A DNA stretch of 64,000 nucleotides, taken from NCBI RefSeq assembly GCF_025024155.1, contig NW_026251831.1:1-64000 (forward strand). The letters are read 5' to 3'. A program made the translations under genes and the position numbers. Origin of the DNA: Gamsiella multidivaricata (lineage: Eukaryota > Mortierellomycota > Mortierellomycetes > Mortierellales > Mortierellaceae). The stretch's first letter is position 1, and every line of letters starts with the position of its first letter. A model generated the notes under the pieces. It ran no database searches and had not been told where the DNA came from. It worked only from the letters and a program-made list of their open reading frames with translations. Positions 20,993 to 62,457 of this stretch are shown here, piece after piece.

Positions 20993-22309
20993 AGTAACAA
21001 AAGAATACCCTTTGTCTGTAGTATATACCTCCTCTAGGAATAGCACACAATGAATAAAGATGTCATTTGCATTCATTGCCAGGCCCTACTGTGAAATGGA
21101 TTAGTTTATTAACTAAGTGCATAATGAACAATTCATGAGTGTTGATGTGAACATCGGACAAGACTTCCTTCCAAGTTAATGAAAGGCGAACGGTACACAG
21201 CTCAAAGGGCTGGGGATCGACTGCATTTTCTCGTCTCTTGTACGCAAGACGATATCACCGCTACAGTCATAGCTGCCATAGAAGACGTGCTTATTAACGG
21301 AAAGACCCCTTGCACGACCGCACCGCGGAGCAATGCAGGTAAACACAACGGTCAGTATTTTTCTTAGCAGCACGTCTTGAAGTCCCGGTGATGAGGGCTC
21401 TCGATGTCTAGAGAGTTGACGCTTGCACTTGCGAAGCGCCTGGACGTGAGGGAGGAATAAAGAAGCGATGGATATCTGAGTGGATGAATTGGCTACGCTA
21501 ACGTAGCTGTTCTCACGGATACAGACTACGATGGATTGGAGTATGCAAAAGGCACAGGCTAGGTTATCGACTTTCAATCTCTTGAAGTACAAAACAGAGG
21601 CGACAATGCTAAGGGCCATGACGCTGAAAGTCAGACTTGTGGATTTTATGGTAGGTGAAGAGAATGCGTGAAGAGAGTGTACGCGCCTTTGGTTGAGTAG
21701 TGAGAGGAGTGATGCTTCCTAAAGACATATTGATAGAGGTATATGAACAATGTTTTTCGACCAAGGGTAAAGCGCGTAGGACGACAGCGTTTGAGTTTGT
21801 GTCATGTTTCAGAAACTCGTAGTATCAGTTCTAATTGCAGTGGCCAGAAATAGCGAAACGCGCTTCCTTTTTCTGGTATTTATATCTTTGTATGTGGCAT
21901 GGTGTGAGGACAAAGAGAGACGATTGTTCCATATATGAACAAAGATGTCAGATTGAACGATGTTCCCACTTGTGCTGGAATCGTATCATGATGGAAAATT
22001 GTCTGAGAATGTGCATGGACCGTTCATCTTTTTTTTTTGGCCTCCTACATTGTACCACGCATTACGCCGATACCGCAATGCTCGCATCGAGTGCACCATT
22101 GGGCCCAACCGTTACAGGGGCAACGTAGGGACACTCGGTTTCCAGATTCGCCCGTGTTATAAGCAACTGTGGTAAATGAAAGGGGTAAAGTTCGATATGA
22201 TCCTTCGGCCAGTCTTTTTTCATGCTCGTCCTCCTTTTGAATGTTACCCCCACCTCTCATTCATCCCAACTTCTTCACTACCAACACCTTCTCTCGCTCT
22301 TTATTCATC
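20993..22309. other. Intergenic region, 1.3 kb
   Basis: Polyadenylation signal AATAAA near 21053 for the VTT gene, then the promoter of the first aminotransferase-like gene. One minus-strand open frame (21176-21619, 147 codons, starting MALSIVASVLYFKRL) has a hydrophobic start and several Cys, but I recognise no family and see no paired exons. I leave it uncalled. Confidence 0.4.
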
Positions 22310-25050: not shown

Positions 25051-25463
25051 GGCTACAGCTCTATTTTTGTCAATTGAAGAGGGGATTATTCTACTTGGAC
25101 AATGTCAATAAAACCGATAGGAGATTAGAGAGAGAAAAAAAACAATTGAAGGTACATCCAGGGTACAGGTACAAACCTGCTCACGGATGAATGCTGCTAC
25201 TTCATAGCCCTAGTGTTGCCCTCTTTTCACTCAAGGGAGGGGGCTGGAAATGCGGCACCCACACCCCCTCCCCTGCCTTGGTTTGTACCCCCATAATCAA
25301 AGATTCATCTGTCCGCGGAGTTCATTTTTCCTTGCACTCTTGTTTATAAGGTGTCCTCAACCTTGTTCATGCCCTCTCTTAAAAACATAGCACGTCGACC
25401 CTCACTAACCCCTACCGACCTAATCCTCCTACTTACACCCCCTTACTACCAACCCCACACATC
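25051..25463. other. Spacer between the two aminotransferase-like genes
   Basis: It carries the terminator region of copy 1 (CAATAAAA near 25108), G/C-rich runs near 25230-25275 that include AGGGG-type stress-element cores, a TTTATAAGG TATA-like element at about 25345, and a C-rich leader of copy 2. Confidence 0.45.
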
Positions 25464-28383
25464 ATGGATCCAGACACAGTACTCGACCACTGGGCTCGTC
25501 TGAGCGAGAAGAACACCAAAGATTTCCTTCGCGCCGTTCAACAAGATGTCATTGCATCTGCCGCTATCCACGATCCACCCTTTGGCAAGAAGAAATCCAC
25601 ATATGTCGACTGGTTCGCGTCCGGGAAGCCGCTCAAAACATTCGAAACCATCATGCAACAATCCGTCCTGCCATACTACGCCAATACACACACATACTCG
25701 ACCTCAACAGCTCGGTATACCTCCACATCTGTCGCCAATTCAAGGAGGATCGTCAGTCGATGCCTGAATGCTCAAACAACAAAGGGGCATCCCCACGAAG
25801 CCGTGGTCCTGTTTTGCGGGTAAGGAATAGTAAGACAAGGGAGCCCCATTCCCCACCCCTTTATCTCCCTCAGTCCTCGATGTCTTTACAGAAAACCCTA
25901 ATTCGAAAACACTCACACGCAACGTGTTGTGGTTCTCATGTGTAACAACAGTGATGGATCAACAGCAGCTATCGCCAAGGTACGCAACGTCTTCCGCCTT
26001 GGCGACCCTGGATTCTGGTTCCGAAAAGCGCATTCCGAACATGCTGTTTGCTCCGGAGACCTGAGCTCGACTTTCTCCATCTCTGATACCACATCCCCAT
26101 CATCAGCACCGGACTCGAGCCTGTGCCAGAGAGTCTATGAGAGGCTTCCGGCACAGTACCGGCCTGTGGTTTTTGTTTCGATCCAGGAGCATCATTCGAA
26201 TCTGTTGCCATGGCGCGAGAGCTGTGCAGACGTTGTGGTGATTGGCGAACATAGCCGGCATCGATTGGATCTCGATCAACTGGAGATGCAGCTGCAGAAG
26301 TACCGTGAACGACCCTTGAAAATTGGGTCTTTTTCGGGGGGTAGTAATTTAACAGGGGTGTTGGTTAGTGAAAGAGTTTTATTTGTTTGTTTGTTTGTTG
26401 TGGAACAGATAGCCCCCTTTCATTCATTCACACATCTCCCTTCTATCCATCTCAATTTTTTTTTCCCACCGCGGACGATCGATTTTGCGCATTCTATAGA
26501 ATGATACTGTCGCGATCGCAGAGCTCCTTCACAAATACGACGCCTTTGCGTTCTTTGACTATGCTGGCGTCGGTGCCTACACGACCGTTGACATGAACCC
26601 TCCCCCTAGCAACAGCTCCTTACCGATGCACGAGAGCAAAGCCTACAAGGACGGCGTCTTCCTCAGTCCACACAAAATGGTCGGCGGTCCTGGCTCGTCC
26701 GGTGTCCTTGTTGCCCGACTAGAGATCTTTTCGTGGGCGGAACAAAATAGTTCGACAAATCGCAACGAGATCTTGCCGTCGCATCCAGCAGGAGGCACTG
26801 TCGACCTGGTGTTCGACAACAAGCACAAGTATGTCAAGGACGTCGTTGCAAGGGAAGAGCCTGGCACACCCAATATCCTGGCCACCATCCGCACAGGACT
26901 AGTGATGCGTCTGCAGGAGATCATGGGCCCAAAGTTAATTTTGGAAAAGGAATACAGGTTGGCGACGTATATCTACCACCGTCTGCTGCAGAACAATAAT
27001 ATCGAGATCTTGGGTACACAGGTGCTGAGCCGCGTGGCAGTGTTTAGTGCTATGATCTCCATCCCGGTCCTCTCGACTCCAGAGCGGCCGATGGAGATCC
27101 ATTACTCGCTCCTCAGCGCAATCATGAACGACTTTTTCGGGATCGAGATGCGCGGTGGGTGCATGTGTGCTGGTCCGTACGGCGCGAAGCTGCTCAAGCT
27201 CACCCCCGAGAAGAAGGCCACACTTTGGGAACTCATGGTGGGGGCCGACAATGGAAACGACGACGACTATCAGACGACCTACGACAACTGCGGACGCAGG
27301 ATCAAAAAGAACCTTCACCAGCAGGACCTGGCCTCATCAGCGTTCAAGCCTGGATTCGTTCGATTCAGCTTTCCATATTTTGCGCGGGACAAGGATGTGG
27401 AATTTGTGCTACAATCGTTCGAATGGGTCGCCCAGTATGGATTCCTGCTGATTCCGCTTTACAGGCTGGATGGCGAGTCCGGCATGTGGTCAATTCGGGA
27501 AGCGGTTCGTCGAGCTGTTAATTTGGAGATCAGCCCCAGGAGGTTCGCCAGCGGACTTCGAAGCGATTACATACCCGTTGCAACAGACTGTATCTATGGT
27601 CTTCAAAAGCTGTTCTCCCATCAAGCTCGGATTAGTGCTCCAGCTGGGGTCCCGACAAAGGCTTCCGATGCATCTCGACCATTCACACCTGAGGGGCAAA
27701 GCAGCAGTTGGCTGAATTCAAGGATGATCAACACGCCCAACCAAGCTGGGGAATCCTCGTTACGACTATCCAGTATGGGAAAATCGGCTGCGCATTTGCG
27801 AACAAGCAGCAATACACATGGGCCTACATCTATGGTCGTTCAGGATTCCAGTTGCACAGCCAAGACGCCCACTCATCCAATATCCCGCAGTTCCTCCGTC
27901 GCAAGCTTGTCTGGTGGCCATGATCCACATCAGCAAGTTTACGAGACTATCCACGGTTATCAGTCCCCATATAATACCTCCCATCATCCTACAGAGGTCG
28001 GTTCTCAGGGACATCTCTCTGTCAATGGATTGGTTCAAGAACCCAGTTCGGGTCGGAGTTCGCCCTCGATCTTTTCATTCAATCGCCCACGTTTGTTCAC
28101 CCACGGTACGTCGTCGTCTTTTGGATCCGCTGGAAAGATGGGTGCCGTACATCCTACTTCTGATGCGGCGACAGCAAATCAGATGAAGATTAGTCCCGCG
28201 ATGAGTGCAGCGCTGAAGGAGCTGTCGATCGAGGCGTTGGAAGAGGAGATGTCCAAAGTCGATTGTAATCCTCTCGCAGCATCTATACGACAGTTCGCGA
28301 TCCCGATCGAGATCGCGCAGGTGTATATGGGACAGAATACTGGTGGGTCTGTTCCGACGTGCTTTCCTAAACGACGCAGGTAG
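25464..28383 (+). CDS. Class V aminotransferase-like protein, copy 2, PLP lysine intact (883 aa, 3 exons)
   Basis: Exons 25464-25819, 25952-26363 and 26500-28383; phases close. Introns sit at the same positions as in copy 1, but both are longer. Key blocks are KKKSTYVDWFASGKPL, KIGSFSGGSNLTGVL, FAFFDYAGVGAYTTVDMNP (Asp for the pyridine nitrogen) and DGVFLSPHKMVGGPGSSG, with Schiff-base lysine Lys315 (codon 26674-26676), matching cysteine-desulfurase-like class V enzymes. Then come the RFSFPYFARDKDVEFVL and GFLLIPLYRLDGESG blocks and a ~270-residue Ser-rich tail ending in the same conserved helix as copy 1 (ALKELSIEALEEEM). Substrate unknown. Intron 2 uses the less common donor GTTAGT. Confidence 0.85.
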
Positions 28384-41211: not shown

Positions 41212-43889
41212 ATGGCCAACCAGGCTCGCGTCGCTTCCCTCCAGGACAACATCAACCGCCCCACCCGGGTCCTCTCCTACCCCAAGAAGGCCGATGGCAA
41301 GCCTCTCTACACCTCCGAGTTCTTTGGCGAGAACGTCTTCTCGCTTCAGCAGATCGCCAAGGCCCTGCCCAAGCCCGCCTATGCCTCCTTCCTGAAGCAG
41401 ATGCGCGGTCGCCAGGCCCTCGACAAGGGCACTGCTGACGCCATCGCCCACGCCGTCCGCATTTGGGCCATGGACCGTGGCGCCACCCACTTCACCCACT
41501 GGTTCCAGCCCCAGACCGGCTCGACCGCCGAGAAGCACGATGCTTTCCTCACACTAAAGTCCAGCTTCTCCCCCAATGGCGAGGAGGTAAGAAAACCCCC
41601 CCCCCCCGAACGGATCAGTGGAAATGGACAGCAAGAGGAAACAACTTTCAGGCTTTTTTATTATCAGCATGGACTGGGATCCCAGAAGAAAAAACAGATC
41701 TAGGCAGGGGATGTAGATGGATCATTGGGCTGTCCTAGACACAAAATGGTCGATCTTTTTGGTCTACTGTCAGCGCATCTTTGGAGCCTATGTCGTGTCC
41801 CGTTAGTGCAAAGGACCATTAGGGACTGTGGGATGATAAGGACGGGGCACTGCCGATACGATGCGTCTATTTTCTACCGCTACGGGTGGAGGGGAAGAGG
41901 GAGGGAGATGATTCACGCCACGGAAATATGATTGCTGGTCAAATAGATCCATATACTAACAGCTAGGTATCTATCTATTTTAATTAGGTCACTGCCATCG
42001 ATGCCTTCTCTGGCTCGCAGCTGCTCCAGGCCGAGCCCGATGCGTCATCGTTCCCCTCCGGAGGCATGCGCACCACCTTCGAGGCCCGTGGATACACCGT
42101 CTGGGACACCACCTCGCCCATGTTCATTCAGGAGGGACCCCACGGCACCTCGGTCCTTTACATCCCCTCGGTCTTCATCTCCTACAACGGCGATGCTCTC
42201 GACGAGAAGACCGTCCTCCTCCGCTCAACCTCCGCCATCGCAAAGTCCGCCAGCGAGCTCCTCAACCTCATTGACCCCGTCCCCGTCGGTGCTCAGCCCA
42301 AGGTCAGCCATGTCTACACCACCCTCGGAACCGAGCAGGAGTACTTCTTGATCGACCGCTCCCTCTACTCCCTCCGCCCCGACTTGAAGCACACCGGCCG
42401 CACCTTGATCGGAAACTTGCCCCCCAAGCATCAGCAGATGGACGATCACTACTTCGGACGCGTTCCCTCCAAGGTCATGGCCACCATGTCCGAGGCCGAG
42501 CTCGAGCTCTTCCGTCTTGGTGTCCCTGTCAAGACCCGCCATAACGAGGTCGCCCCTCAGCAGTTCGAACTCGCCCCCATCTTCGAGGAGGCCTCGCTCG
42601 CGGTTGATCACAACCTGTTGACCATGGACGTTCTCTCCAAGGTCGCCCACAAGAACAAGCTGAAGGTCCTCTTCCACGAGAAGCCCTTCAAGGGTGTCAA
42701 CGGATCCGGCAAGCACTGCAACTGGTCCATGTCGACTGACCGTGGCGAGAACTTGCTCGACCCCACTGTCAAGCCCGAGACCAACTACCGCTTCTTGCTT
42801 GTCCTCGTCGCTGTCCTCCACGCCGTCCACCAGCACGGAGGCCTCATGCGTACCTCGATCGCCTCTTCCTCCAACGAGCACCGTCTCGGTGCTTGCGAGG
42901 CTCCCCCAATGATCGTTTCTGTCTTCTTGGGTGAGCACTTGACCGAGGTCCTCAACTCGATCGAGGAGTCCCGCCCCATCAAGAACTTCTCCGTTCCCGA
43001 GATCCAGACCATCAAGTTGGGAGGCACTGCATTGGATGTCAAGGTCGCCTCTTTGCCCAGCATCGCCCGTGACTTGACCGACCGCAACCGCACCTCGCCC
43101 TTCGCCTTCACCGGCAACAAGTTCGAATTCCGTGCTGTCGGCTCCAAGCAGTCGCCTGCCTTCCCCGTCACCATCCTCAACGCCGCCGTCGCCTCGGCTC
43201 TTCAGGATGTCACTGCTGCCCTTCGCGAGCAGATGGGCGACAAGCCCTACCCCTCGGATGCCGACAAGGTCGCTGTCATCAAGAAGTTCATTGCCTCGAC
43301 CAAGTCTGTTCGCTTCGAGGGCGATGGTTACTCCGAGGCCTGGATCCACGAGGCCGAGAAGCGTGGTCTGCCCAACATCAAGACCAGCCCCGAGGCCTTC
43401 GAGCAGCTCTTGAACCCCGTTCACTCGGACATGTTGACCAAGCTCGGTATCTTCACCGCCTCGGAGCTCCAGTCCCGTCACTTGATTCTCCAGGAGCGCT
43501 ATGCCAAGGATCTCCTCGTCGAGGCCTCGACCCTCCGCACCTTGCTCGCCTCCCAGATCTTGCCTGCTGCTTTTGAGTACCGTGCTAGCTTGGCTCAGGC
43601 CATCGGCTTGTTGAGAAACATCGACAACGACGATGCTTCGCCCGAGTTGGCTGCCCTCAAGGCCCTGACCCCTGTTGTCAAGGAGCTCCAGGCTGCGATC
43701 GAAAGCTTGGACGGCTCCATCCATGGTATGCATGAGGTCGGCGATGATGCCGTTGCGGAGGCCAAGTTCGCCAACGACCATATCGCCCCTGCCCTGAACG
43801 TTGCCCGTGCTGCGGCCGACAAGCTCGAGGCCTTGACCGCCGACAAGTACTACCCCATCCCCCACTACAGTGAGCTCTTGTGGTTCTAA
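41212..43889 (+). CDS. Glutamine synthetase type III (GSIII, 758 aa, 2 exons)
   Basis: Exons 41212-41586 and 41988-43889, phase 0, with a 401-nt intron that has a good branch site (TACTAAC) and TTAG acceptor. Motifs are those of the large GSIII class, not the ~360-aa eukaryotic GSII: ARGYTVWDTTSP, TTLGTEQEYFLID, RHNEVAPQQFELAP, NGSGKHCNWSM, RTSIASSSNEHRLGACEAPP, and SPFAFTGNKFEFRAVGS. Length also matches GSIII (~700-730 aa) with a short N-terminal extension. It condenses glutamate and ammonia with ATP in the cytosol. Codon use is strongly C-biased (TCC, ATC, AAG) unlike most neighbours, so expression is probably high. That bias also produces a 546-codon antisense open frame with no coding meaning. 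Confidence 0.95.
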
Positions 43890-44217
43890 GTCAGCGGCGG
43901 ATTATTTTTTTCAGGGGAAACCAGCAGTGAATTGTCATGGGGAAAACAGGATTATATTATTTTTTCAGGGATCTGTATTTTGTAGCATATCAACCAGAAA
44001 GGAGTCAAAGCATTGCTCTTTTGTGAACAAGGAACACCATTCAAATAAAACAACCAACTCAAAAAACACATTGTTCTAAACGAAATATACCATTGAAAGC
44101 CGCTTCCGGTGATTTATTTTTATGAATGAGGCAATGCCACGAAGAGGGGAAAAAAAATGTAAGGATAGTAAGGACATGGCCGATTGAAAAACAACAAAAT
44201 GGAAGTGACTCTCGAGA
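43890..44217. other. Convergent 3' spacer between glutamine synthetase and CDT1 copy A
   Basis: GS 3' UTR with AATAAAA near 44045, then the 3' flank of minus-strand CDT1. The homology shared with the second CDT1 copy starts only at about 44208. Confidence 0.5.
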
Positions 44218-47009
44218 CTACTTCCTCATGATCCTCGACACAAGCTTCGACCGCAGTGCCTTCTCGTCATGTACTACCTTGCCTCCTTTGCCGTCGTCCC
44301 TGATGACCTTGAAGTACCGGCTGCCATCGTTCACCGAGAACACCGTGCACCACTCCGGCAGTTCCTTGCTCAACATCTCCAGGCTCTCTCCTCCTTCGAC
44401 CTCAGAAATCGGCATCCGTGAGCTCTTGACCACCTGCTCCGTCAGTGTCTGGAGCAAGCTCACGTCGATGCGCTTGAACCGGATCAGATCAAACACGGCT
44501 GGCAGTCGCGACAAAGTCAGGGCCTGTTGCTTTTCTTCTGCAGTGCCCAGTCCGCGGCTTACTTCTTTCTTCTCCAGTTGCTTCTGTCGGATCTAGTGTG
44601 CGTGGGCCAATAAAACACAAGAAGACTGGTGAGTTGGATATGGATTATGGATCATGGATTGTGAGCAGCGTTAGCAAACTAGCTGCAAAGGCACACAGGT
44701 TCCGATACGTTACTCGTTCTTTGAGTTGCTCCAGTGAAGAAAGCGGCTTGGCCACTGGAGCCTCAGCGACCACCTTTGCGACCGCTGCTGCACTCCCTGA
44801 CGCCTTCTCGTCCTTCTCCTCCTTCTCCTCCTTCTCGTCTTTCGCCTTCCTCATGTCCTGCTCGACCTGCTTGTCCTGTTCGTCCTTGACAGCATATGGA
44901 CTTGCTGTCGCCCGTCCTTCGTCTGTCCGAGATCGCTGCATCATATCGTTCCTGTTCCCCAGTGCCTTCAGGTCCAGCTTCCGCACATCGACCACCGCCG
45001 GTTTCAGCAGTGGAATCTCTGCCTCCGCCACCATCGGCACACTCTCCACGTCAAAATCTGGATGCCACTGATGTGGAAAGGTATCTGTCCTCGGTGGAGT
45101 CGTCGACCTCAGGAATTTCTAGTCATCCCGCATAGTAAACAACACACCCCTCCCTGTGTTAGTATAGTGCATCCGCATATCATCCACTCATCGCACAATC
45201 CCTCTGCTCCGCTGAGGATGCTCGCCCTACCTGGTGGTACACTTGGATGTGCTCATAGACCCGATCTACAAACAGCTTGCGCCTCCTTTCCGCCTGCGGA
45301 ATGAAATTCGCCTCCGTCTCGCTCTTCAGCTCCTGCATCTCAATCAGGATCGACCGCGTCTTGACTCCCTCGAACAGGCATGGTGCTGCCGTGTACCGGT
45401 AACACTCTGGCAACACTGTCTTGAGTTGCGCAAGATGCCCGAGTTCAAAATTCCTATTCGTCAACGATACATTGCACATAGTGCTGTGTCAGTACCTCAG
45501 ATACATTGCATTCATCCGCTCCATCCATAAAAAAAGAACAGGCGCTGCCTAAGCCCGCTGCGGACCTTGATGACTGGAGCTCGACATGTTTCTTCATCTT
45601 GTGGTAAAAGCACAGCTGGCCCTGTCCTTTCATGAACACCATCACAGTCTCAAGCGCCTTGAAATTGAGATACAGCGTATTCAAGTGGCTAGGCAGTGGC
45701 AGTAGAGCCGCCCCGACTGTCGACTGCTGCACTGCGAATGGCCGTGGAATCCTAGAGGACGATGAGATCGATCTGCGCACCTCGACTTTGCTGTAGTAGC
45801 CGTCGCTGGGCTGCTCCTCAGACACCTTCCGGGGACTGGTCCGTGGAGCCGCCTTGGCAACCGTGCGTGCCAGTGGATGGATGTTATCGTCGTCATCGTC
45901 ACCGCTGCTGCTGCGGCTGCTGTGTCTCCGGAAAATGGTGTCCTCTGCCACTGGCTTCAGTGGTATGGTATGTTCTGTTGGTTGTGACCTGTTCTTTGTT
46001 GCTGTACCATCCTCTTCTGCTGTATCCGCTTTTGGTGCCTGCTTATTGTCTTCAGAAGAATGTTGTGCTTGTGCTTGTGTTTGATCTCTGTCTCTGGACT
46101 CCTCTATTGCCTGATCCTTGATTTCAGTGAGCTGTGTCGGCTGTGGTGTTGACGGGGTCTCTGTATCTTTCGCATCCCTTGCATCCTCTGCATCCTCTGC
46201 ATCCTCTGCATCCTCTGCATCCCCTACATTCCCTGCATCCTCTGTAAACGACGAGTCAGCGTTCTCAATGGCAGCAGTTGGGTCTTCGTCATAATGTGCT
46301 GTGCTCGCTATCGACAGCTGCTCGTCCTTGCTGACTGTGTGCCTGAAGTGGATCGACGACTGTGCCTTGGAGATAGTCGTAGATGTGGATGTAGTCGTGG
46401 TCCTAGTCGTGGCCGTTGTTGTGGCCGTGCTGTGTAGTGTCTCCTGTGTAATGTTATCCTTCTTGACTTCTTGAGACAATGACCTCGATCGCAATGTCCG
46501 CGTCTCCTGGCCTTCTGCTGTCTTCTTGTCCTCCTTTGTCTGCTTGTAAGCAGCCTAGCAGTATTCACAGACATAGTAAATATCATCGAGCCGACGCATT
46601 GAGTATCACCAGTAAAGCGAGTATCACCAGCACAGCAACAGCATGCAACACGAGTTCAGTCCTGCAGCAGCCCAATCACCTACCAGTTTCTCCTCCATTG
46701 ACTGTATGAGTCGGCCGGCCCTGTTCAGCAGCTGGTCGTCTGCTGAAAGACTAGAGTCATCATTGTCCGCTGTCGCTTGTCCATTGGTATCCGTTGCTGT
46801 GCCGTCGCCTGACTCTGCCTTGGCGCGCTTCTACGAGGTTGGATACAATACGGAGTATAAGTTCGCCTTCCCTGCGCTGAATCACCAGTGCTTGACAATT
46901 GAGGATGTTCAGCGAGTCGAGATGCAGGCACACGCACCTGGGCTATTGTCCTGCGCGGGCCAGCTTTCTTTTGCGCAAACTCCAGCCGTCTTTGGTTTCC
47001 AGGAGTCAT
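44218..47009 (-). CDS. cdt1: DNA replication licensing factor Cdt1, copy A (736 aa, 6 exons)
   Basis: Exons (descending) 47009-46938, 46830-46684, 46554-45566, 45453-45231, 45118-44714 and 44592-44218; phases close. The N-terminus (NQRRLEFAQKKAG) loosely recalls a PIP-type degron. A long disordered stretch with an Ala-Glu-Asp repeat follows. The central Cdt1 winged helix runs from LPLPSHLNTLYLNFKALETV through FYHKMKKHVELQSSR into NFELGHLAQLKTVLPECYRY (joined by splicing). A charged linker leads to the C-terminal MCM-binding winged helix (LPAVFDLIRFKRIDVSLLQ, MLSKELPEWCTVFSVNDG). Cdt1 loads MCM2-7 onto origins with ORC and Cdc6. Intron 3 uses an unusual donor, GTCCGC, but it is the only one giving the conserved junction. 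The head-to-head neighbour is the coiled-coil gene at 47290. Confidence 0.85.
46186..46224. repeat. Short tandem repeat coding Asp-Ala-Glu units in CDT1 copy A
   Basis: A nonanucleotide GCATCCTCT array (about four units plus degenerate flanks) gives the acidic AED repeat. The same array occurs 5478 bases further right in copy B with the same unit number. Confidence 0.75.
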
Positions 47010-47289
47010 GCTGATAGGTGGAAAGGTTACAAAGCAGGTGAAAGGTGTTATCAAGAGAGATATGGGTGGGCTGCACAACACGCGCGGGTGGATGAACAAA
47101 CAGCAGTCCATTTGTTTCCCGCGTAAAAAAAAAATGTGGCCGTCCTATGCATGGCTCAGCTTCATCCCACTCCCGCCCTCTCCTTCCCTTTTCATTGCAC
47201 TTCACCCTTTACTCACGCAAGCATATATCCACAGAAGCAAGGACAGACAACTGGAGACATCAAAGCAACAGCAGAAGAATACATCCGCG
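47010..47289. promoter_or_regulatory. Divergent promoter shared by CDT1 copy A and the coiled-coil gene
   Basis: Only 280 bases separate the two start codons. The sequence is unrelated to the region upstream of CDT1 copy B. CT-rich stretches lie near 47160-47215. Confidence 0.5.
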
Positions 47290-49213
47290 ATGCAGGACGA
47301 GAACGCTATCGAGGCGCAACATAGTCCGCGCGGCATGAAGACTACATCGCACCTGAAAAACAAACCAGAAGTACGAGCGAGCACCATCGCCTGTGAAAAC
47401 AGCATTGCATCTTTTCAGCCATGAAGTTCCGAGACTTACTGCATGTATACATTTACTGTTTGCTTCTTGAACCCTCGTTAGGGTGCTGCCGAAGGCATGC
47501 CACCGCAAAAGACACAAAAAACCAGTCATGTGGTAAATAGCATCGCTATTCAGGATGGGACCTCTCTATGACGACCCTGTTGAGGTGGATAGCTTTACTG
47601 ATCGGCCATACCCTCTTGTGTGTCTACTTCAGCCGTCAGCTCAACTTCAAGATATAACTCCATTGAATCCCATCACGAACCTTCCCAGAGCACATGTAAG
47701 GATCGTTGTGCAAACGCTATTGCCCGTCATCCTCTGAAACGATGCGAACTGGGACTGACAGCGGGCTGCTCTTGTATCTCTTGGCATTTTAGAGCAGGAC
47801 ACATCCTCTACCCGGCACAGGAAAAGGGAGACAGGCCCAAGAGGTATACTTTGTCTCGCTCGACTACTTTGCAATAAGCGCAATTCTTTCGTTACAACCA
47901 TACTGATACGGCGCCTTCTGATAATCCCAACTAGAACAACAAGCTCACAAAATCCCAAACATCCGTCGGGACCGAAAAGTCCAGCCGCCTTGTCCAGACA
48001 CGTCTCAATGTACCATCCAAGCCGCAACACCAATCTCCCTCATCCGAGAAAGAGGATTCACTACCTGCAGCAACCGCACATGAATCAGAGACCCTCAGGA
48101 CGCTGCAGAGTTCAATCGAGACACTCAAGGAATCAATCGCACAGCTTCAACGCCAGTTCAAGCAAGAGAGAGACACCTTTAACCATGCGCGCCAGACAAT
48201 GCAAAAGGAGCAGGATGAGCTTATGGAGCAGATCGGAGATGCGGAGCAGGAAATGGAGGAACTTCAGGGTACCATTGCAAATCAAATCTCCGAAATTCAG
48301 AAGCATGAGGACAAAGTGTTTGAGTTGCAGAAGCAGATTGATGAGAGAAGCGATGAAATCAAACGACTGCAGAAGTATGTGGAGGAGTTCGAGGATGAGA
48401 CTTGCAGGATACTGATGTATAACGAGTTCGAGGAGTTGACGCTCGATATTGAAAGACTGAGGGAGGCGATCGGCGAGCAGATGGCGATTCTGGGGGGGAT
48501 GCATAACCAGGTAGAAGCAGTGGAATATGAAACCGATGCCTTGCATAGTAGGGATTTGAAGGGTCTGCTGGAGGAGAAGGACTATTATATTTTGGAGCTA
48601 GAACAGGCATTGGAGCCACAGAGTCTTGATATGGGGATTGTGCTCAATATGTCAATTGAAGAAGAGTTTGAAGCGCTCAGGCGGCAAGCCCAATTGACTA
48701 AGGATCTGGATAAGGAGGTAAGGAGCCATTACGGCCGTATCCCTACTACCTTGAAAGCAACGGCAATGATTTTGAAAATGAAAGAATGACTAACATCGAG
48801 AATCTTTTGGGGAATTCTCTGTGATAGGCGGCCAAGGCTCAGGCCCGACTTAAGATCAGATTCGAGAAGGAATGGATGTCCTTGGATCGCCAACATACTG
48901 TGAATATGGAGCAATTCACAGTGAAGATCGAGTAAGTGCCATCGCAGCTTGTTTTCAACTACAAGCAGCCGACATAAAAACGCTGTTGCTGAACCCTCAT
49001 GTTGCGCCCCTGTGGCGTCTTCTTTGAAATAGGTCTCACAAGACGCGATTGAACAAGCTGCATAAGAACATTAAAAGCGCCAAGGAAACGCTTGCTGTTT
49101 CGGAGCAGGACTTCAAAGAAGCGGAAGCAGAGCGTTTGCAAGTCCTGACAAGGAGCAAGGCATTAGAACAGGAGATCGAAGACGTGCGGCGACAATTGGC
49201 CCACTACCTATGA
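47290..49213 (+). CDS. Coiled-coil protein of unknown function (437 aa, 7 exons)
   Basis: Exons 47290-47370, 47482-47532, 47633-47695, 47793-47843, 47935-48717, 48828-48931 and 49033-49213; all phases close, mostly phase 0. The first four tiny exons encode a polar, probably disordered N-terminus (~70 residues). The remainder is nearly all heptad coiled coil (LRTLQSSIETLKESIAQLQ, ELQKQIDERSDEIKRLQKY, RLNKLHKNIKSAKETL) ending LAHYL. No globular domain, signal or membrane segment is seen. Similar proteins serve spindle poles, kinetochores or septa, but I cannot assign one. It lies between the two CDT1 copies and shares a 280-base divergent promoter with copy A. Confidence 0.75.
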
Positions 49214-49695
49214 ATAAGATCAATATCGAGAGGTCAACGCATCGGCACAATCATCTCCTGGATTCTTCTTTCACGCTTCTTTGCTTTTCTTTTTGTACAT
49301 ATCATTCGCTGCAGCTTTGCTCCTTCCACCATTACTATATTTACGAGTGGGTGCTATCGTATGCGAAAGGCGGAGGTCAACAAGACGAAGACACTTTTCT
49401 CTTTTACGAATAAACAATGCCGTTCCAATAAAAACAATCTCTAAACACAAGCGTAATCTTCTTTCTTGACGCTTTATTCCTTGATTAATACCACACAGCG
49501 AAAATATTAGGCGAGGTATGATTAGGTGGTATTTTAAGTCCGCTGAACAAGTCAGCGCAGATCAGCTTCCTTGCAAGCAAAAGATGTCAAGGTCGTCGAG
49601 ACTGGCTCTGGTGCGGAGGAAAAGGACTTGAAGGGCCGTAGGAACAAAACACGGCTCTTCGCAAAACAAAATGATAACAAAAGCAACTCTCAAGA
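49214..49695. other. Convergent 3' spacer between the coiled-coil gene and CDT1 copy B
   Basis: It holds polyadenylation signals near 49410 and 49429. It has no clear similarity to the 3' flank of CDT1 copy A apart from a few bases next to the duplication edge. Confidence 0.5.
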
Positions 49696-52493
49696 CTACT
49701 TCCTCATGATCCTCGACACAAGCTTCGACCGCAGTGCCTTCTCGTCATGTACTACCTTGCCTCCTTTGCCGTCGTCCCTGATGACCTTGAAGTACCGGCT
49801 GCCATCGTTCACCGAGAACACCGTGCACCACTCCGGCAGTTCCTTGCTCAACATCTCCAGGCTCTCTCTTCCTTCGACCTCAGAAATCGGCATCCGTGAG
49901 CTCTTGACCACCTGCTCCGTCAGTGTCTGGAGCAAGCTCACGTCGATGCGCTTGAACCGGATCAGATCAAACACGGCTGGCAGTCGCGACAAAGTCAGGG
50001 CCTGTTGCTTTTCTTCTGCAGTGCCCAGTCCGCGGCTCACTTCTTTCTTCTCCAGTTGCTTCTGTCGGATCTAGTGTGCGTGGGCCAATAAAACACAAGA
50101 AGACTGGTGAGTTGGATATGAATTATGGATCATGGATTGTGAGCAACGTTAGCAAACTAGCTGCAAAGGCACACAGGTTCCGATACGTTACTCGTTCTTT
50201 GAGTTGCTCCAGTGAAGAAAGCGGCTTGGCCACTGGAGCCTCAGCGACCACCTTTGCGACCGCTGCTGCACTCCCTGACGCCTTCTCGTCCTTCTCCTCC
50301 TTCTCCTCCTTCTCGTCTTTCGCCTTCCTCATGTCCTGCTCGACCTGCTTGTCCTGTTCGTCCTTGACAGCATATGGACTTGCTGTCGCCCGTCCTTCGT
50401 CTGTCCGAGATCGCTGCATCATATCGTTCCTGTTCCCCAGTGCCTTCAGGTCCAGCTTCCGCACATCGACCACCGCCGGTTTCAGCAGTGGAATCTCTGC
50501 CTCCGCCACCATCGGCACACTCTCCACGTCAAAATCTGGATGCCACTGATGTGGAAAGGTATCTGTCCTCGGTGGAGTCGTCGACCTCAGGAATTTCTAG
50601 TCATCCCGCATAGTAAACAACACACCCCTCCCTGTGTTAGTATAGTGCATCCGCATATCATCCACTCATCGCACAATCCCTCTGCTCCGCTGAGGATGCT
50701 CGCCCTACCTGGTGGTACACTTGGATGTGCTCATAGACCCGATCTACAAACAGCTTGCGCCTCCTTTCCGCCTGCGGAATGAAATTCGCCTCCGTCTCGC
50801 TCTTCAGCTCCTGCATCTCAATCAGGATCGACCGCGTCTTGACTCCCTCGAACAGGCATGGTGCTGCCGTGTACCGGTAACACTCTGGCAACACTGTCTT
50901 GAGTTGCGCAAGATGCCCGAGTTCAAAATTCCTATTCGTCAACGATACATTGCACATAGTGCTGTGTCAGTACCTCAGATACATTGCATTCATCCGCTCC
51001 ATCCATAAAAAAAGAACAGGCGCTGCCTAAGCCCGCTGCGGACCTTGATGACTGGAGCTCGACATGTTTCTTCATCTTGTGGTAAAAGCACAGCTGGCCC
51101 TGTCCTTTCATGAACACCATCACAGTCTCAAGCGCCTTGAAATTGAGATACAGCGTATTCAAGTGGCTAGGCAGTGGCAGTAGAGCCGCCCCGACTGTCG
51201 ACTGCTGCACTGCGAATGGCCGTGGAATCCTAGAGGACGATGAGATCGATCTGCGCACCTCGACTTTGCTGTAGTAGCCGTCGCTGGGCTGCTCCTCAGA
51301 CACCTTCCGGGGACTGGTCCGTGGAGCCGCCTTGGCAACCGTGCGTGCCAGTGGATGGATGTTATCGTCGTCATCGTCACCGCTGCTGCTGCGGCTGCTG
51401 TGTCTCCGGAAAATGGTGTCCTCTGCCACTGGCTTCAGTGGTATGGTATGTTCTGTTGGTTGTGACCTGTTCTTTGTTGCTGTACCATCCTCTTCTGCTG
51501 TATCCGCTTTTGGTGCCTGCTTATTGTCTTCAGAAGAATGTTGTGCTTGTGCTTGTGTTTGATCTCTGTCTCTGGACTCCTCTATTGCCTGATCCTTGAT
51601 TTCAGTGAGCTGTGTCGGCTGTGGTGTTGACGGGGTCTCTGTATCTTTCGCATCCCTTGCATCCTCTGCATCCTCTGCATCCTCTGCATCCTCTGCATCC
51701 CCTACATTCCCTGCATCCTCTGTAAACGACGAGTCAGCGTTCTCAATGGCAGCAGTTGGGTCTTCGTCATAATGTGCTGTGCTCGCTATCGACAGCTGCT
51801 CGTCCTTGCTGACTGTGTGCCTGAAGTGGATCGACGACTGTGCCTTGGAGATAGTCGTAGATGTGGATGTAGTCGTGGTCCTAGTCGTGGCCGTTGTTGT
51901 GGCCGTGCTGTGTAGTGTCTCCTGTGTAATGTTATCCTTCTTGACTTCTTGAGACAATGACCTCGATCGCAATGTCCGCGTCTCCTGGCCTTCTGCTGTC
52001 TTCTTGTCCTCCTTTGTCTGCTTGTAAGCAGCCTAGCAGTATTCACAGACATAGTAAATATCATCGAGCCGACGCATTGAGTATCACCAGTAAAGCGAGT
52101 ATCACCAGCACAGCAACAGCATGCAACACGAGTTCAGTCCTGCAGCAGCCCAATCACCTACCAGTTTCTCCTCCATTGACTGTATGAGTCGGCCGGCCCT
52201 GTTCAGCAGCTGGTCGTCTGCTGAAAGACTAGAGTCATCATTGTCCGCTGTCGCTTGTCCATTGGTATCCGTTGCTGTGCCGTCGCCTGACTCTGCCTTG
52301 GCGCGCTTCTACGAGGTTGGATACAATACGGAGTATAAGTTCGCCTTCCCTGTGCTGAATCACCAGTGCTTGACAATTGAGGATGTTCAGCGAGTCGAGA
52401 TGCAGGCACACGCACCTGGGCTATTGTCCTGCGCGGGCCAGCTTTCTTTTGCGCAAACCCCAGCCGTCTTTGGTTTTCAGGAGTCATGCTGAT
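49686..52493. repeat. Direct duplication, unit B (about 2.81 kb, contains CDT1)
   Basis: Second copy of 44208-47015, same orientation, colinear without gaps. The flanks on both sides differ from those of unit A, which argues against a simple assembly stutter. Confidence 0.93.
49696..52487 (-). CDS. cdt1: DNA replication licensing factor Cdt1, copy B (736 aa, 6 exons)
   Basis: Exons (descending) 52487-52416, 52308-52162, 52032-51044, 50931-50709, 50596-50192 and 50070-49696. Same structure as copy A; all splice sites and the frame are intact. Three amino-acid changes: Gly4 to Glu and Glu10 to Gly in the first exon, and Gly to Arg in the C-terminal winged-helix region (codon at 49869). One Val codon change is silent. 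The start codon lies about 160 bases from the probable eS26 start on the other strand, so this copy has a different upstream region from copy A. Both copies look able to make full-length protein. Confidence 0.85.
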
Positions 52494-52649
52494 TGCTGGC
52501 AAATGGGGCCGAGTCCGAGTGGTACATATGCAACTCGCATTGGAACGAGCTGTGCTGCTTACGTATTAAGGGTTTTATGTGACTCTTTGAAATTTTTATT
52601 TATGCGCTGTTCGCAGCAGGCCTCCGAAGCTCCCTCTTTCACTTTCAAT
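52488..52649. promoter_or_regulatory. Short divergent promoter between CDT1 copy B and eS26, with telobox-like site
   Basis: About 160 bases. AAGGGTTTTA at 52568-52577 reads AAACCCTT on the other strand, close to the AAACCCTA telobox common upstream of ribosomal protein genes. A CT-rich leader (52622-52645) precedes the candidate ATG. Confidence 0.4.
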
Positions 52650-54132
52650 ATGGTATTGAAATGCAGCGTCAAATCTGTCTGGGAGTCAAATGCGTTTAGG
52701 GAGACACACACATCCACATTTATCCATGGACACATTGAAGGACAGTACATCCAGCCATTCAGCCATCCAACCATCCATTCCACTTGGCCGACCATTGCGA
52801 TATTGATCTCCATTTTATCTCGATATCCATCTGCGGAGACAACATCACGGCCATCCCCAAGAAGATTCATCAATGGGATGGCTATTTTTGCGAAAGGGTC
52901 ATGGAACGGCATACGAAGGATATTTTAACCAAAGAGGGAATTCAGGCCCTGTTTGAATTTTCAGTCCAAGAGTTGTGGGATCACTTGAGCAGGACAGGAA
53001 GAATGCATCATCGTACGAGCTCATCAAAAAGAAAGAGCAAGGATCTGTCTCATCGTTTCTGGACTCTGGATCGCTTCTTTGGTCGAAGTGACAAACTTTT
53101 CGTGGAAGGCTATTTAAACCTATTCTCGCTGTGTCAGGATGGAGGTTATAGGTGGATCGACAACATAACTGCAGCGACTGATCTACACAATCGGTCGGCA
53201 AGAACAGCAATCCTGGATTCCGCCTGAATTAGGACCTACTTCCCTCAACCCGCAACTTCATACTTCCGACTTTTCTCAACAAGTAACTCACCACTCGCGT
53301 CTGTTTATCCTATGAACTTCCTTTAACAGACCGTCAAGAGAAGAAACCACGGACGCAACAAGAACGGTCGCGGCCACGTTAAGCCCGTCCGCTGCTCCAA
53401 CTGCTCTCGCTGCGTCCCCAAGGACAAGGCCATCAAGCGTTACACCGTCCGTCCTATGGTCGAGTTGGCCGCCGTCCGTGATATCACTGAGGCTCTTGTC
53501 TACAAGGGTAAGGGATCGCAACCGCAATAGCAGCGCAAGGAACAAAGTGAAATTAGAATTCCTCAGTATATTTGGTTCGACAACACAACAGCAACATCAG
53601 TGGCAATTTTTACGATTTGAGGACGAAGTTCTGGCTGGTATATGGAAACATGGATATCAGGGAACTACATGTTTCTCGGAAGGAAAGCTTTTTACGACTA
53701 GAAACATAATTTGGATTGGCATCAACTCTGGATCAGGGAGAACAAGTATCATGGACTGGAGAACACGACATCTGACATTACATGTCTTTTTTATATAATT
53801 CTGTTCCTATAGAGTACACCTTGCCCAAGTTCTACATCAAGATTCACTACTGCATCTCCTGCGCCGTTCACGCCCACATTGTCCGTGTCCGCTCGCGTGT
53901 GGGTCGTCGCAGCCGTGCTCCCCCACCACGCTTCCGTTTCAAGGTAACACTCCTCGATTTGCAGGATGCTGCAGGACGTTTAATTGAACTATGGCTTTTA
54001 ATGCTGGAGACTATCATACTGGAAAGCAAAGGACATATCGATACTTACGTTTTTGCCTTTGTATTATATTGTATCCCATTCTAATAGGATGGCAAGAAGG
54101 TTGCCCCCGCCCAGCCTGCCAAGCCTCTGTAA
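52650..54132 (+). CDS. rps26: Ribosomal protein eS26 (118 aa, 4 exons, first exon probably only the ATG)
   Basis: Exons 53330-53507, 53813-53943 and 54088-54132 are certain: [20 protein letters not shown] with the zinc ligands CSNCSRC and later [12 protein letters not shown], and a short Lys/Pro/Ala tail [14 protein letters not shown]. The mature N-terminus of the family is M-T-x-K-R-R-N, so the first exon must end right after ATG in phase 0. The only ATG followed by GT upstream is 52650-52652, after a CT-rich leader, giving a 677-nt first intron. That exon is inferred. The protein sits near the mRNA exit channel of the 40S subunit. The plus-strand open frame at 52784-53227 lies inside this intron and is not taken as a gene. 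Confidence 0.88.
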
Positions 54133-57629: not shown

Positions 57630-60118
57630 TTATTTAAAGTCAGCCGCGATCTTGACCCAGACCGTATCCGGGTGCCTGGCCGAAATGGGATCCTGATCCA
57701 AATGAATTTGCGCTGTAAAATACTGTGTATCGTACTCCAACGGCACGGTGCTCTTCTCCGTCGCATAGATCTCTCCGACAGCCACATTCGCCGTGCCCCT
57801 CACCGGCAACTTCTGAGGACCACCCTTGGTCTTATAATTCAGCTGCTTGATATCCGACACCAAACTCTCGTTATCCATCACGAAGCCACCAGGGAAGGAG
57901 AAATACGAAAGCGGGGTCTTGTAGATGCCTCCAACGGCATAGGTCTTGACCTTGTGCTCGATGTTGAAACGGGTCGCGATCATCGTGCAGGCAGATCCAC
58001 AGAACCCGTTCGTGACAATGGCCATGTCCGAGGGCTTCCAGGGCAGGGTGTGGTTCTTGGCCAAGGGCAGGAAGGGCCATGCGTAGTCGAAGTAGTTCTT
58101 CTGGGTGTAGGTTTGGGTTGTACCGCCGCGCTTCAGGCTCACAGGCTTCGTGAACATCGAGGCATCCGTGTAGGGCTTCGAGGTCGCAACGCTATTGTAT
58201 CCACGGGCATCAAAGACCGAGCGCGCCTGAGCCTGCTTGATCGCAACCTTGGCAGCGCCCTGGACATAATCATTCGCACGGAGGTCCTCGACGAAATAGG
58301 GCTTGGCCTTCGGGAACATCAGCGCGTTAATAAAGTAGGCGAAATCGACCGATCCACCACCGTTGTTGGTCATGTCCAGGATCAGTTTCTTGCATCCACC
58401 GTCGCGGAGGGTCTCGAGCCCCTGGATGAACTGAAGATAATCCGACGCATCGAACTTGAAGTACGCAGCCTCCTCCGATGCAATAACTGCAACACAGGCA
58501 TTCGACTTGTTGATCTTGTAGAACGCCGTCGTCGCCGTGATCAGAACCTCGGTTGCCTTCGTGATCGTCTGTGCCCCACCGTTACGTCCGTTCTTTCCGC
58601 CCTTGGGCAATCTGATCGCTCCACGCTCACGGTACAATGTCGTGGCCGGGGCCTCGTTCCACCTGGGCGCGATTCCATTGTTCGTTCCATTTTTGGAGTT
58701 GTTCTTATTGCGGTTGTTATCGTACGGCGAGAGCGGCGCCAAGCACTGGACGTCCCAATAGGTCTTCGTATCCTTGAACGTGTTGAACTCAAAATCATCC
58801 GAGGGCTGAACAATCCAGGGGACCGTCAGTTTCTGGACCGCGCCGGTACCGCACTGGATCGTGTACTCCATCGAGGACTTCTTGGGAACTTCCCAGCGTT
58901 TGGAGAAGCCTCCGGGACTGATGAGCCAATCATTGTACCAGGATGTCGAGGCCAGAGCGTCGTTCAGACGGACACCGGGGTCTTTAGAGATCGCCGAGGT
59001 CCGGTCCGTAAAGTCCTGAATGGCCTTCAGGGCTGGGACGCCGTCAATCGTCTGAACGGCGCAGTCGACGATGCCTGTCTTGGGGACGCCCTTCTGGGTG
59101 TCGTCCGCATAGAAAACTCGCACGGTCTGGACGCCGTTGACCACGGGTGCGTACAATGAAATCGGCTGTGCGAATGAAGCCGTATGATAGCAATCGCCTG
59201 GAATGTGTCGAAAGTAGTAATCAAAAGCCAAAATGGGCGAAGCACCAAAGTTAGGTCAATAACTCATTCCCGCTAGCGAACCCCTCTTCGCCTCCTTCAT
59301 AGAATTAAAAATCAAAAGAATTGCTTACTTCTGTAGGCGAGATGACCATCATTAGCCGAGAAGGTCAAGTAAGTCAGCGCCATCTGGAAGTCATAATCGT
59401 TCGTCCACTTGGTTGCCCGAATCTTCTTCAACCCGGCCATCAAATCGACCGTTGCGGTCTTGAACGGAGCCTTCGTGGGCTCCTTGGCCTGGTCCACAAA
59501 CACGTAAAAGTTACCGATCAAGCTCTCGAGGGACGTCAGAGTCTTCTCTGCGACATCGGCCTTGAAACTCTGGGCACGGTAGCAATCCCGCACCGTGTTG
59601 AACTTCAACAACGAGTCCGAGTTCTTGCCTTGGGCCGCCAATTCGCTGCAGGGGTCCTTGGGTTTAGGCTGAGGAGAAGTCGTTGATTTGGCTGCAGTGG
59701 TGGTAGTCTTGGTAGTGGTAGCCGTTTTGGTAGTGGTAGCAGCTTTGGTAGTGGTAGCAGCTTTGGTAGTGGTAGCAGCTTTGGTGGTCGTAACCGCTTT
59801 GGTGGTCGTAACAGCTTTGGTGGTCGTAGCCGCTTTGGTGGTCGTAGCCGCTTTGGTGGTCGTAGCCGCTTTGGTGGTCGTAGCCGCTTTGGTGGTCGTA
59901 GCCGCTTTGGTGGTCGTAGCCGCTTTGGTGGTCGTAGCCGCTTTGGTGGTCGTAGCCGCTTTGGTGGTCGTAGCCGCTTTGGTGGTCGTAGCCGCTTTGG
60001 TGGTCGTAGCGGCCTTGGTAGTGGTGGTAGTAGACTTTGGTGCGCTGTCAATTGGAGCGGCATTGACGGAGACGACGCCCAAGGCGATCACCAGGGAGAG
60101 GATGGAGGTAAACTTCAT
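57630..60118 (-). CDS. Secreted S41 (CPAF-like) serine peptidase family protein with Thr-rich repeat stalk (785 aa, 2 exons)
   Basis: Exons 60118-59329 and 59197-57630, phase 1. The start MKFTSILSLVIALGVVSVNA is a clear signal peptide. Residues ~25-140 are an 18-base tandem repeat giving KAATTT units, a likely O-mannosylated stalk. The mature domain begins KDPCSELAAQG. Catalytic-type blocks of the S41/CPAF group are NDGHLAYRSDCYH (His, rebuilt across the intron), KLILDMTNNGGGSVDF, and NGFCGSACTMIATRF (candidate nucleophile Ser). No C-terminal membrane segment or GPI signal is seen. Fungal members of this group are extracellular and of unknown substrate. Two upstream in-frame Met codons extend the frame to 60397, but the extension lacks any coding character and would bury the signal peptide. 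Confidence 0.82.
59689..60030. repeat. 18-bp tandem repeat in the S41-like gene
   Basis: Roughly 18 copies of an 18-base unit (plus strand GGTGGTCGTAGCCGCTTT with variants GTAACC/GTAACA and GGTAGTGGTAGC). Units in the centre are identical; those at the 3' end of the coding strand are more diverged. Confidence 0.9.
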
Positions 60119-62457
60119 TATTATGGTTAAAGGAAAGGGCTGACAACTGAGTGAGCAAGAGCGCGCGTAATGTGAGGTTGAGTCGAGTAAGGAAAAACGA
60201 TGAGGTGAAGATGAGACTGAGACTGAGACTGAGTCTACAAGGGGATTGGGCGATTGAGATGAAGAGCGTGTAGAGGTACAAGTGAATAAAAGCGAATAGG
60301 AATTGTTCGCTGGCTGAGAAAGAGGAAGCTGGTCCCTGACAAGGGCTGGAAGGGGTCGATAAGGAGGAGAGAGGGAAGCGAGCGTCCGGGTCGGCAACGA
60401 CTCGCGTGACAGGAGAGGGTGTGAGGAAAGGGGGGAGGAGGAGGGGAAAGGGAAGTTCAGGGGAACAAGAGGGAAACAGGGAAGGATGTCTTCACTTTAT
60501 ATTTATCTCCACCCCCAGCGGATGAAGAGAGGTTATGAGAGCCAGGCAATTAGAATAGACATCCCGGGGATGTTATTATTGAAGGTGAATCTTAATCTGC
60601 CAGGGACGAACTATAAGGGGCTCTCGAACATTTCTTTGTCGTCTATGGGGTGGATGTTCAGTCTTTCTATTTGCTTACAATATATTAGTCTCCTAATGAA
60701 ATATGCCCTACGCAAATGTAGTTTCTTTGTCCGTTACATCAGCAATCGAATGGACGGTACCTGAACAATGCTTCCTGCAGATACCCTGCCTCTTTTTCAT
60801 TTCTAGTTACTTAATCCATTGAAGGATGCAATCTGACATTCCCAGGGACCAAATAAACAAACAAACAAACAACAACAACAACGAGGACCGTTGGGCCTCT
60901 GAGAAAAGAGTAAACACAAAAGGGCGCCGTTGAAGAGAACAAAAAAGATTACCCAGGGTTCTCTGCCTTCTTATTGTTTCTTTTGCAAAGGAGCATGAAG
61001 AGAGCATCCAGAATGATGAGGGTACAACACGCAACACAACATGATAGACAAAGAAGCGAGAGGAAGAGAAAGCGAGAGCAAATGTACCTGCGTCAATGTA
61101 TCAAGTCTCTATTTCTTTTTTCCCTGGACCAAGTCTAGTGCCGTAAACACATGCGGTCCCATAACCATCTCCAACACGGCGGCCACTAATCTAGTGGTTA
61201 ATTATCATGGTACACAAATATGCAAGGGGCGAATTTAAAAAAGACTCTGAGCCGTTCATCATCACTTTCCCATGTGTACAAAGACTCGTTCCTGAGCGCC
61301 CAACAGCCTATCACCATACGCCAAACAGTTATTTGGTTGTCCTCGGATACAGAACCCGCCAATCAAACATACCCATTATGACACTAATTTCAATACAGAG
61401 TGATGGGAACCTGGCAGTGTTAGGGGTTCTCGGTCCTGATGCAATCCAGGCGCCATGCTTGCAGTGTTCTCGTCACTTCTGCTGCTCATATTAAGAGCGC
61501 ATTCTTTTCCAGATACAACGAGAAGGATGCACTGCATCAGGGTATGTCCAGCGGACCAAATTACTTTAGTACCGGATCATTTTACAATCGCGGCTGTAGT
61601 ATCCCCAAAAGTACATGCAACACGTCCAGAACACAATACATGGGGCCTTGCAGAATAGCAATATACGCGAGCATTTGTATTCATACCTGTATCCGTATCC
61701 ATATCCGTATCCATGTCCATATCCACGGTCAACTCAGCTCAAGCGTGACAGAAATGAGTAATGGATTATTTCTTGTATATACTCTAATGCCGTCGATTCT
61801 AATATCCATACGACTTTTGAAAAGCTGGATACTGACATTATCTCCAAACCTGAGCACCACATTCGTACCGCCAAGAACCTCAAAACCTAATCGTAGCCTG
61901 ATGCAACCCTTCCTCTAACTATATTTAACGTGGGAGCTCCTCAATTGACCTGTGCATGTATCCCATCCACAAGAACAACAGTAAACTCGTGAGCTTAACC
62001 ATCAAGTCACCCTCATCCATATATGTAGTATGTTCACCAAAGTCCAGTATCCTATCCCTATTGCCACTAGAGTCCACAGCTCCTAATACTTTGCTTCTCT
62101 CATTCTTTCCACCTCTTCCATTCGCACTAAAGCACACCCAGGCATGACAACTCCTTTAATCCAAAGAAAGCACCCCATCTGTCCAAGACCAGTAGGCGCG
62201 TCAGTCGCTTTGTCCCTACGACAGATACCATCTCCTGCGTTGGAGTCCCCAAGAACTGATTCAAAGAACTCGTCTTTCCGATTTGGTAGACTATTTATTT
62301 TCTTAATCCTGTAAAATTATGTTGCTGCCTATGCTGTGTCCCAGTCTACACAGCGCCGTAGTTCTCGATACGATACACGAAAGGGAAAGGATTTGCTTCC
62401 ATAGTCTCACAGTCTGAAAGCGAACTAGACCCCCGCCCACTTGTCCTCATTATCAGA
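60119..62457. other. Intergenic region, 2.3 kb
   Basis: It holds the 5' leader and promoter of the S41-like gene (with a GAGACT repeat near 60210) and the 3' flank of ERD2. It also has a CAAA/CAA run at 60848-60880 and an imperfect 12-base repeat of CCATATCCGTAT type at about 61690-61730. Open frames are short and unremarkable; no gene is recognised. Confidence 0.45.

Follow-up and report, generated by a model that had tools for sequence, protein, structure and literature searches.

For 56 single-locus gene pairs of Saccharomyces cerevisiae with low Ks, the available text of Katju et al. (2009, PMC2728529) reports flank homology of 0-10 bp in about 80% at the 5' side and in 86% at the 3' side, and intron loss was not found in these pairs. 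In the same text 46 of the 56 are given as whole-genome duplicates, many of them ribosomal, with 24 old ribosomal pairs whose introns are unalike. For old duplicate blocks of Drosophila, the portion available of Osada and Innan (2008, PMC2588116) describes a highly identical middle, more divergent edges and a recognisable block that shrinks with time, ascribed to gene conversion failing at the edges. Matches that stop at the coding ends have been described before in duplicated genes which overwrite each other. The regulation of CDT1 itself is relevant here, as in the available part of PMC5294997 it is driven by Cdc10 and, in human, by E2F, so that E2F-like or ACGCG sites are expected in a CDT1 promoter; raised Cdt1 outside G1 is stated there to promote re-replication. 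Among the titles and abstract openings listed first in narrow searches on duplicated Cdt1, none named a near-identical fungal Cdt1 pair.

The CDT1 pair of the soil fungus Gamsiella multidivaricata resembles the yeast pairs, as described in the text available, in that the match comprises a single gene with its introns kept and short flank homology, and differs from them in that its introns are nearly identical and its copies are neighbours (PMC2728529). The identical middle and divergent edges of its block are like those of the Drosophila blocks in the portion seen of that study, which, unlike this pair, were dated by their presence in sister species (PMC2588116). A sequence-only reading of the locus had considered it unexpected for a duplication to end at the codon boundaries. 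This view was not supported, because most low-Ks yeast pairs share 0-10 bp of flank in the available account (PMC2728529); the block ends agree with published duplicate gene pairs and give no evidence for a new duplication mechanism.

Methodology

The analysed window comprised bases 1-64000 of a contig of 81,375 bp, in a genome of 37.5 Mb in 180 contigs. The repeat survey covered this contig and nineteen 10-kb contig starts. Relatives were compared through protein matches, numbering 40 for CDT1 (36 of Mortierellaceae by name), 22 for gene B and the best 120 of 7,996 for glutamine synthetase (GS), in a protein database clustered at 90% identity, where a near-identical second CDT1 of a relative would be hidden. 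Their gene order was taken from the locus tag numbers and contig sizes of the matched proteins. For the comparison of residues, 22 of the 36 Mortierellaceae CDT1 matches were aligned.

Results

The two CDT1 blocks were analysed by self-BLAST and by position-by-position comparison. Each block is 2,808 bp long, and the two are direct and colinear at an offset of 5478 without any indel and with eight substitutions, as the sequence-only reading had described. The coordinates are summarized in Table 1. Comparison of the blocks with the gene models also confirmed that the match ends 6 bp upstream of the ATG and 10 bp downstream of the stop. Both genes, CDT1a in the left block and CDT1b in the right, encode 736 aa in six exons with no internal stop, so the earlier statement of two intact CDT1 genes stands; the five introns (107, 129, 112, 112 and 121 bp, all GT...AG) are kept in each copy. 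A retrocopy was rejected on account of these introns, again in accordance with the earlier reading.

Table 1: Features of the CDT1 locus (positions in the window)
Feature	Position	Strand	Remarks
Type III glutamine synthetase (GS)	42066..43889	+	long ORF; putative ancestral left neighbour of CDT1
Left block with CDT1a	44208..47015	-	ATG 47009-47007, stop 44220-44218
CDT1a exons	46938-47009, 46684-46830, 45566-46554, 45231-45453, 44714-45118, 44218-44592	-	
Divergent promoter region common to CDT1a and gene B	47010..47289 (280 bp)		candidate sites: E2F-like TTTCCCGC at 47115; ACGCG at 47080 (+) and 47120 (-)
Gene B, coiled-coil-like protein	47290..49213	+	6 exons, 420 aa (model of this analysis)
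Interval from gene B to CDT1b block	49214..49685 (472 bp)		no second copy in genome
Right block with CDT1b	49686..52493	-	ATG 52487-52485, stop 49698-49696
CDT1b exons	52416-52487, 52162-52308, 51044-52032, 50709-50931, 50192-50596, 49696-50070	-	
Interval from CDT1b block to putative RPS26 ATG	52494..52649 (about 156 bp)		no E2F-like site; AGGGTTTTATGTGACT at 52569-52584
RPS26	52650..54132	+	exon 2 from 53330; stop 54130-54132 read by eye

The CDT1a protein matched the Pfam models CDT1 (E 2.4e-24) and CDT1_C (8.2e-12), both above the cut-off, and Cdt1 sequences of the PDB were also among its matches. By domain content both genes are CDT1 replication licensing factors, whose predicted role is the loading of MCM at origins. 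A DNA search of the genome placed the block at two positions, and the Pfam CDT1 model, run exon by exon against the genome, gave six matches (two above the cut-off), all at these two loci; no third CDT1 locus was found genome-wide by either search. A cassette carried by a mobile element was rejected as well, given that the block has no third copy, the flanks of CDT1b are unique in the genome and no inverted repeats of at least 40 bp were found at 40-56 kb. CDT1b is a real-looking, lineage-specific second CDT1 gene.

The neighbouring genes were used to find the ancestral position, a question that the earlier reading had raised. Gene B corresponds to BC939DRAFT_481973 of Gamsiella multidivaricata (Mortierellaceae), whose public model has 399 aa. 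RPS26 was identified by comparison with the merged models P0048-P0050 of relatives, and its first exon is probably a bare ATG at 52650, the sole ATG followed by GT before the exon at 53330. The CDT1 locus of other Mortierellaceae holds the same protein family with the same neighbours, GS and gene B, as CDT1a. CDT1 and gene B carried a common tag prefix in eight assemblies, with consecutive numbers in five (BGZ47, BGX26, BGZ72, CPB97, BGZ94), two apart in BG000 and five apart in KVV02; in BCR41DRAFT the tags are far apart, yet both genes lie on a contig of equal size (1,068,272). Among the best 120 of 7,996 GS matches, nine assemblies shared a prefix between CDT1 and GS, consecutively numbered in four (BGZ65, BGZ68, BGZ76, BGX26) and not in the other five (BGZ94, BGZ73, BGZ74, BGZ93, BG004), counts which are to be read with GS having paralogs and with names existing for cluster representatives only. 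Within the same GS matches, BGX26 has GS, CDT1 and gene B in a row, and gene B and GS of BGX21 are two numbers apart.

Gene B is fused in one model with the RPS26 behind it in three assemblies, namely Mortierella sp. AM989 and two of Linnemannia zychae, and the contigs of these models have the size of their own CDT1 contigs (33,589; 33,709; 411,598). In these three assemblies, unlike in Gamsiella, RPS26 follows gene B with no CDT1 in between. The order GS - CDT1 - gene B - RPS26 is the simplest reading of these data and is well supported as ancestral, the relatives being known here from their tags and models. This order would place CDT1a in the ancestral position, with CDT1b added between gene B and RPS26, so the tags and merged models of the relatives answer the question in favour of the left locus. 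The models P0048-P0050, named "40S ribosomal protein S26" and combining gene B with RPS26, are probably annotation errors. No CDT1 protein of Gamsiella occurs among the 40 CDT1 matches, even though the database includes its gene B from this contig; CDT1 may have been split or overlooked in the public annotation. Gamsiella multidivaricata has a second genome represented in that database, under the tag BGZ54.

The eight substitutions lie at 44214, 44391, 44560, 44643, 44668, 46875, 46981 and 46999 of the left copy. All are transitions, for which the chance is 0.04 to 0.10 if 2/3 to 3/4 of changes are transitions. From CDT1a to CDT1b they give G4E, E10G and G680R, the only three residues that differ between the proteins, together with one synonymous change (codon 623), three intronic changes (in 581 bp of intron, a low divergence) and one change past the stop. 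The two substitutions in codons 1-10 both alter an amino acid; a synonymous one is lacking there. The quarters of the block contain 5, 0, 0 and 3 substitutions, and the inner 2.2 kb or so is identical. The chance of an empty middle half was 0.004 and that of an empty middle third 0.04, these tests being picked post hoc on eight substitutions; on the same eight, and likewise post hoc, the largest substitution-free gap (2,207 bp) had a chance of 4e-5, and the average of 203 bp from the nearer block edge one of 5.5e-5.

The alignment of relatives revealed G at residue 4 in 14/22 and E in none, as against E4 in CDT1b; at residue 10 it showed G in 16/22 and E in none, as against E10 in CDT1a. At residue 680 the 22 relatives carry R (11), K (8) or Q (3) but no G, whereas CDT1a has G680. 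The derived state therefore looks to be that of CDT1b at residue 4 and that of CDT1a at residues 10 and 680. As E10, G680 and E4 are absent from all 22 relatives, the differences are not damage of a new copy alone, and mutation confined to the junction regions of the new copy is disfavoured, two of the three amino-acid changes looking derived in CDT1a.

At the borders, only a few bases separate sequence of 1-2% divergence from unrelated sequence. Over about 400 bp outside the block the positional identity was 0.24 on the left and 0.20 on the right, and the longer end given by BLAST (47024/52503) consists of extra mismatches and one gap. The noncoding bases adjoining the codons match between the copies at 15 of 16 positions, and the border extensions were only mildly above random (3.5% at the right and 1.8% at the left of 1,160 pairs), a weak hint that older homology once reached beyond the block. 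No homology was found between the upstream flanks of CDT1a and CDT1b, where the score was matched by 32/100 shuffles. A 56-column match of the 3' flanks was reached by 0/100 shuffles, by 0/75 control windows and by 0/199 AATAAA windows (2/199 with softer scoring); under a stricter control it was equalled by 7/325 terminator-like window pairs, which weakens it as a sign of residual homology, and it is one of 12 comparisons. Beside CDT1b neither a remnant of a second gene B nor one of the CDT1a promoter was detected, shuffles reaching the scores in 16 and 32/100 cases on the same strand and in 22 and 92/100 on the opposite strand. No further copies of the CDT1b flanks were found in the genome.

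Discussion

About an even chance (0.5) is given to CDT1b being a second copy of CDT1 which was later homogenised with CDT1a, presumably by gene conversion. On the Gamsiella lineage, CDT1 would have been copied with its introns into the space separating gene B from RPS26, the new copy lying 3' to 3' with the former and head-to-head with the latter; the flanks would have been barely copied, or would have diverged past recognition, so that today's match stops where the coding region does, and gene conversion would keep the middle of the block identical while failing at its edges. A near-identical middle including the introns was found together with higher divergence at the edges, as gene conversion would leave them (post hoc, on eight substitutions). 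Both copies have changed while the middle is undiverged, which fits the published pattern in the available part of that study (PMC2588116), and since the introns match almost fully, an old age would need conversion and not selection alone. The two amino-acid changes without a synonymous one in codons 1-10 and the missing upstream flank homology count against homogenisation. The abrupt border and the matching noncoding bases look more like a physical junction than like slow erosion of the flanks.

A recent single insertion is a serious rival, held to be somewhat less probable, in which a gene-sized fragment, captured for example in break repair between gene B and RPS26, ended by chance at 6 and 10 bp beyond the codons and has not been homogenised since. 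The borders are abrupt, the introns are nearly unchanged, no residue of upstream homology is present, and the short intervals between the block and its neighbour genes (Table 1) leave little room for a decayed flank. The differences should then be evenly spread, yet the inner 2.2 kb has none, and two ends so close to the codons would be a coincidence. In a variant, CDT1 and gene B would have been duplicated in tandem and the extra gene B later lost; against it, the surroundings of CDT1b showed no trace of that gene or of the promoter of CDT1a. An assembly artefact, either as a false second copy or as two real copies whose inner 2.2 kb received one short-read consensus, is regarded as improbable. 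A collapsed assembly would produce the same clustering at the edges, since every difference lies no farther than about 460 bp or 140 bp from unique flank, and the parts available of the literature, PMC10386755 included, gave no account of the sequencing method. A false duplication would not give flanks that differ on both sides of both copies within a conserved gene order; there is also no N in 223,044 bases examined (part of which overlaps the window), and a contig of 1.1 Mb is present.

What merits a bench test is the promoter context. The E2F-like motif TTTSSCGC occurs five times in the window, and neither it nor ACGCG was found between the start codons of CDT1b and, as predicted, RPS26, which are 162 bp apart. 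From this we infer that CDT1b would be transcribed from the RPS26 side and that CDT1a would keep a promoter of cell-cycle type. The stretch 52569-52584 may be a ribosomal promoter element of the HomolD and HomolE kind, a weak assignment, as the pattern AGGGTTTTN{0,6}TGTGACT had one occurrence in the whole genome and the surroundings of two uL14 loci offered no decisive evidence. At the protein level, residues 4 and 10, two of the three that differ, fall within or next to an N-terminal motif that is conserved (Q6 in 19/22, K15 in 20/22 and G17 in 20/22 relatives) and presumably resembles a PCNA-binding motif or degron. It is conceivable, but rather unlikely, that CDT1b captured the RPS26 promoter, so that one licensing factor would be controlled by the cell cycle and a second, near-identical one would be tied to growth, with the N-terminal changes possibly letting S-phase destruction differ; if true, this would be a natural escape from the strict control of Cdt1 dosage. 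Provided that both copies exist and are expressed, the locus would offer a naturally occurring test case for the tolerance of a second CDT1 outside its usual promoter, because raised Cdt1 outside G1 promotes re-replication, according to the part available of PMC5294997.

The CDT1 pair was the sole direct pair of at least 300 bp and at least 85% identity listed by BLAST in the 271,375 bases of the repeat survey (less than 1% of the genome), a sample too small to say much about whether such pairs are usual in this genome. The one other pair listed there was a 503-bp inverted repeat at the start of contig C7 (L011:5597-6757), 99% identical and with about 160 bp between its arms. Near the young CDT1 pair, the head-to-tail stretches 22306-24242 and 25460-27491 gave three BLAST matches of 72-78% identity and form an older tandem gene pair; the ORF 26593-28383, overlapping the second stretch, looks like a class V aminotransferase. 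Short coding repeats rich in Ala, Thr and Lys were observed at 59696-60025, inside the ORF 59312-60397 on the minus strand.
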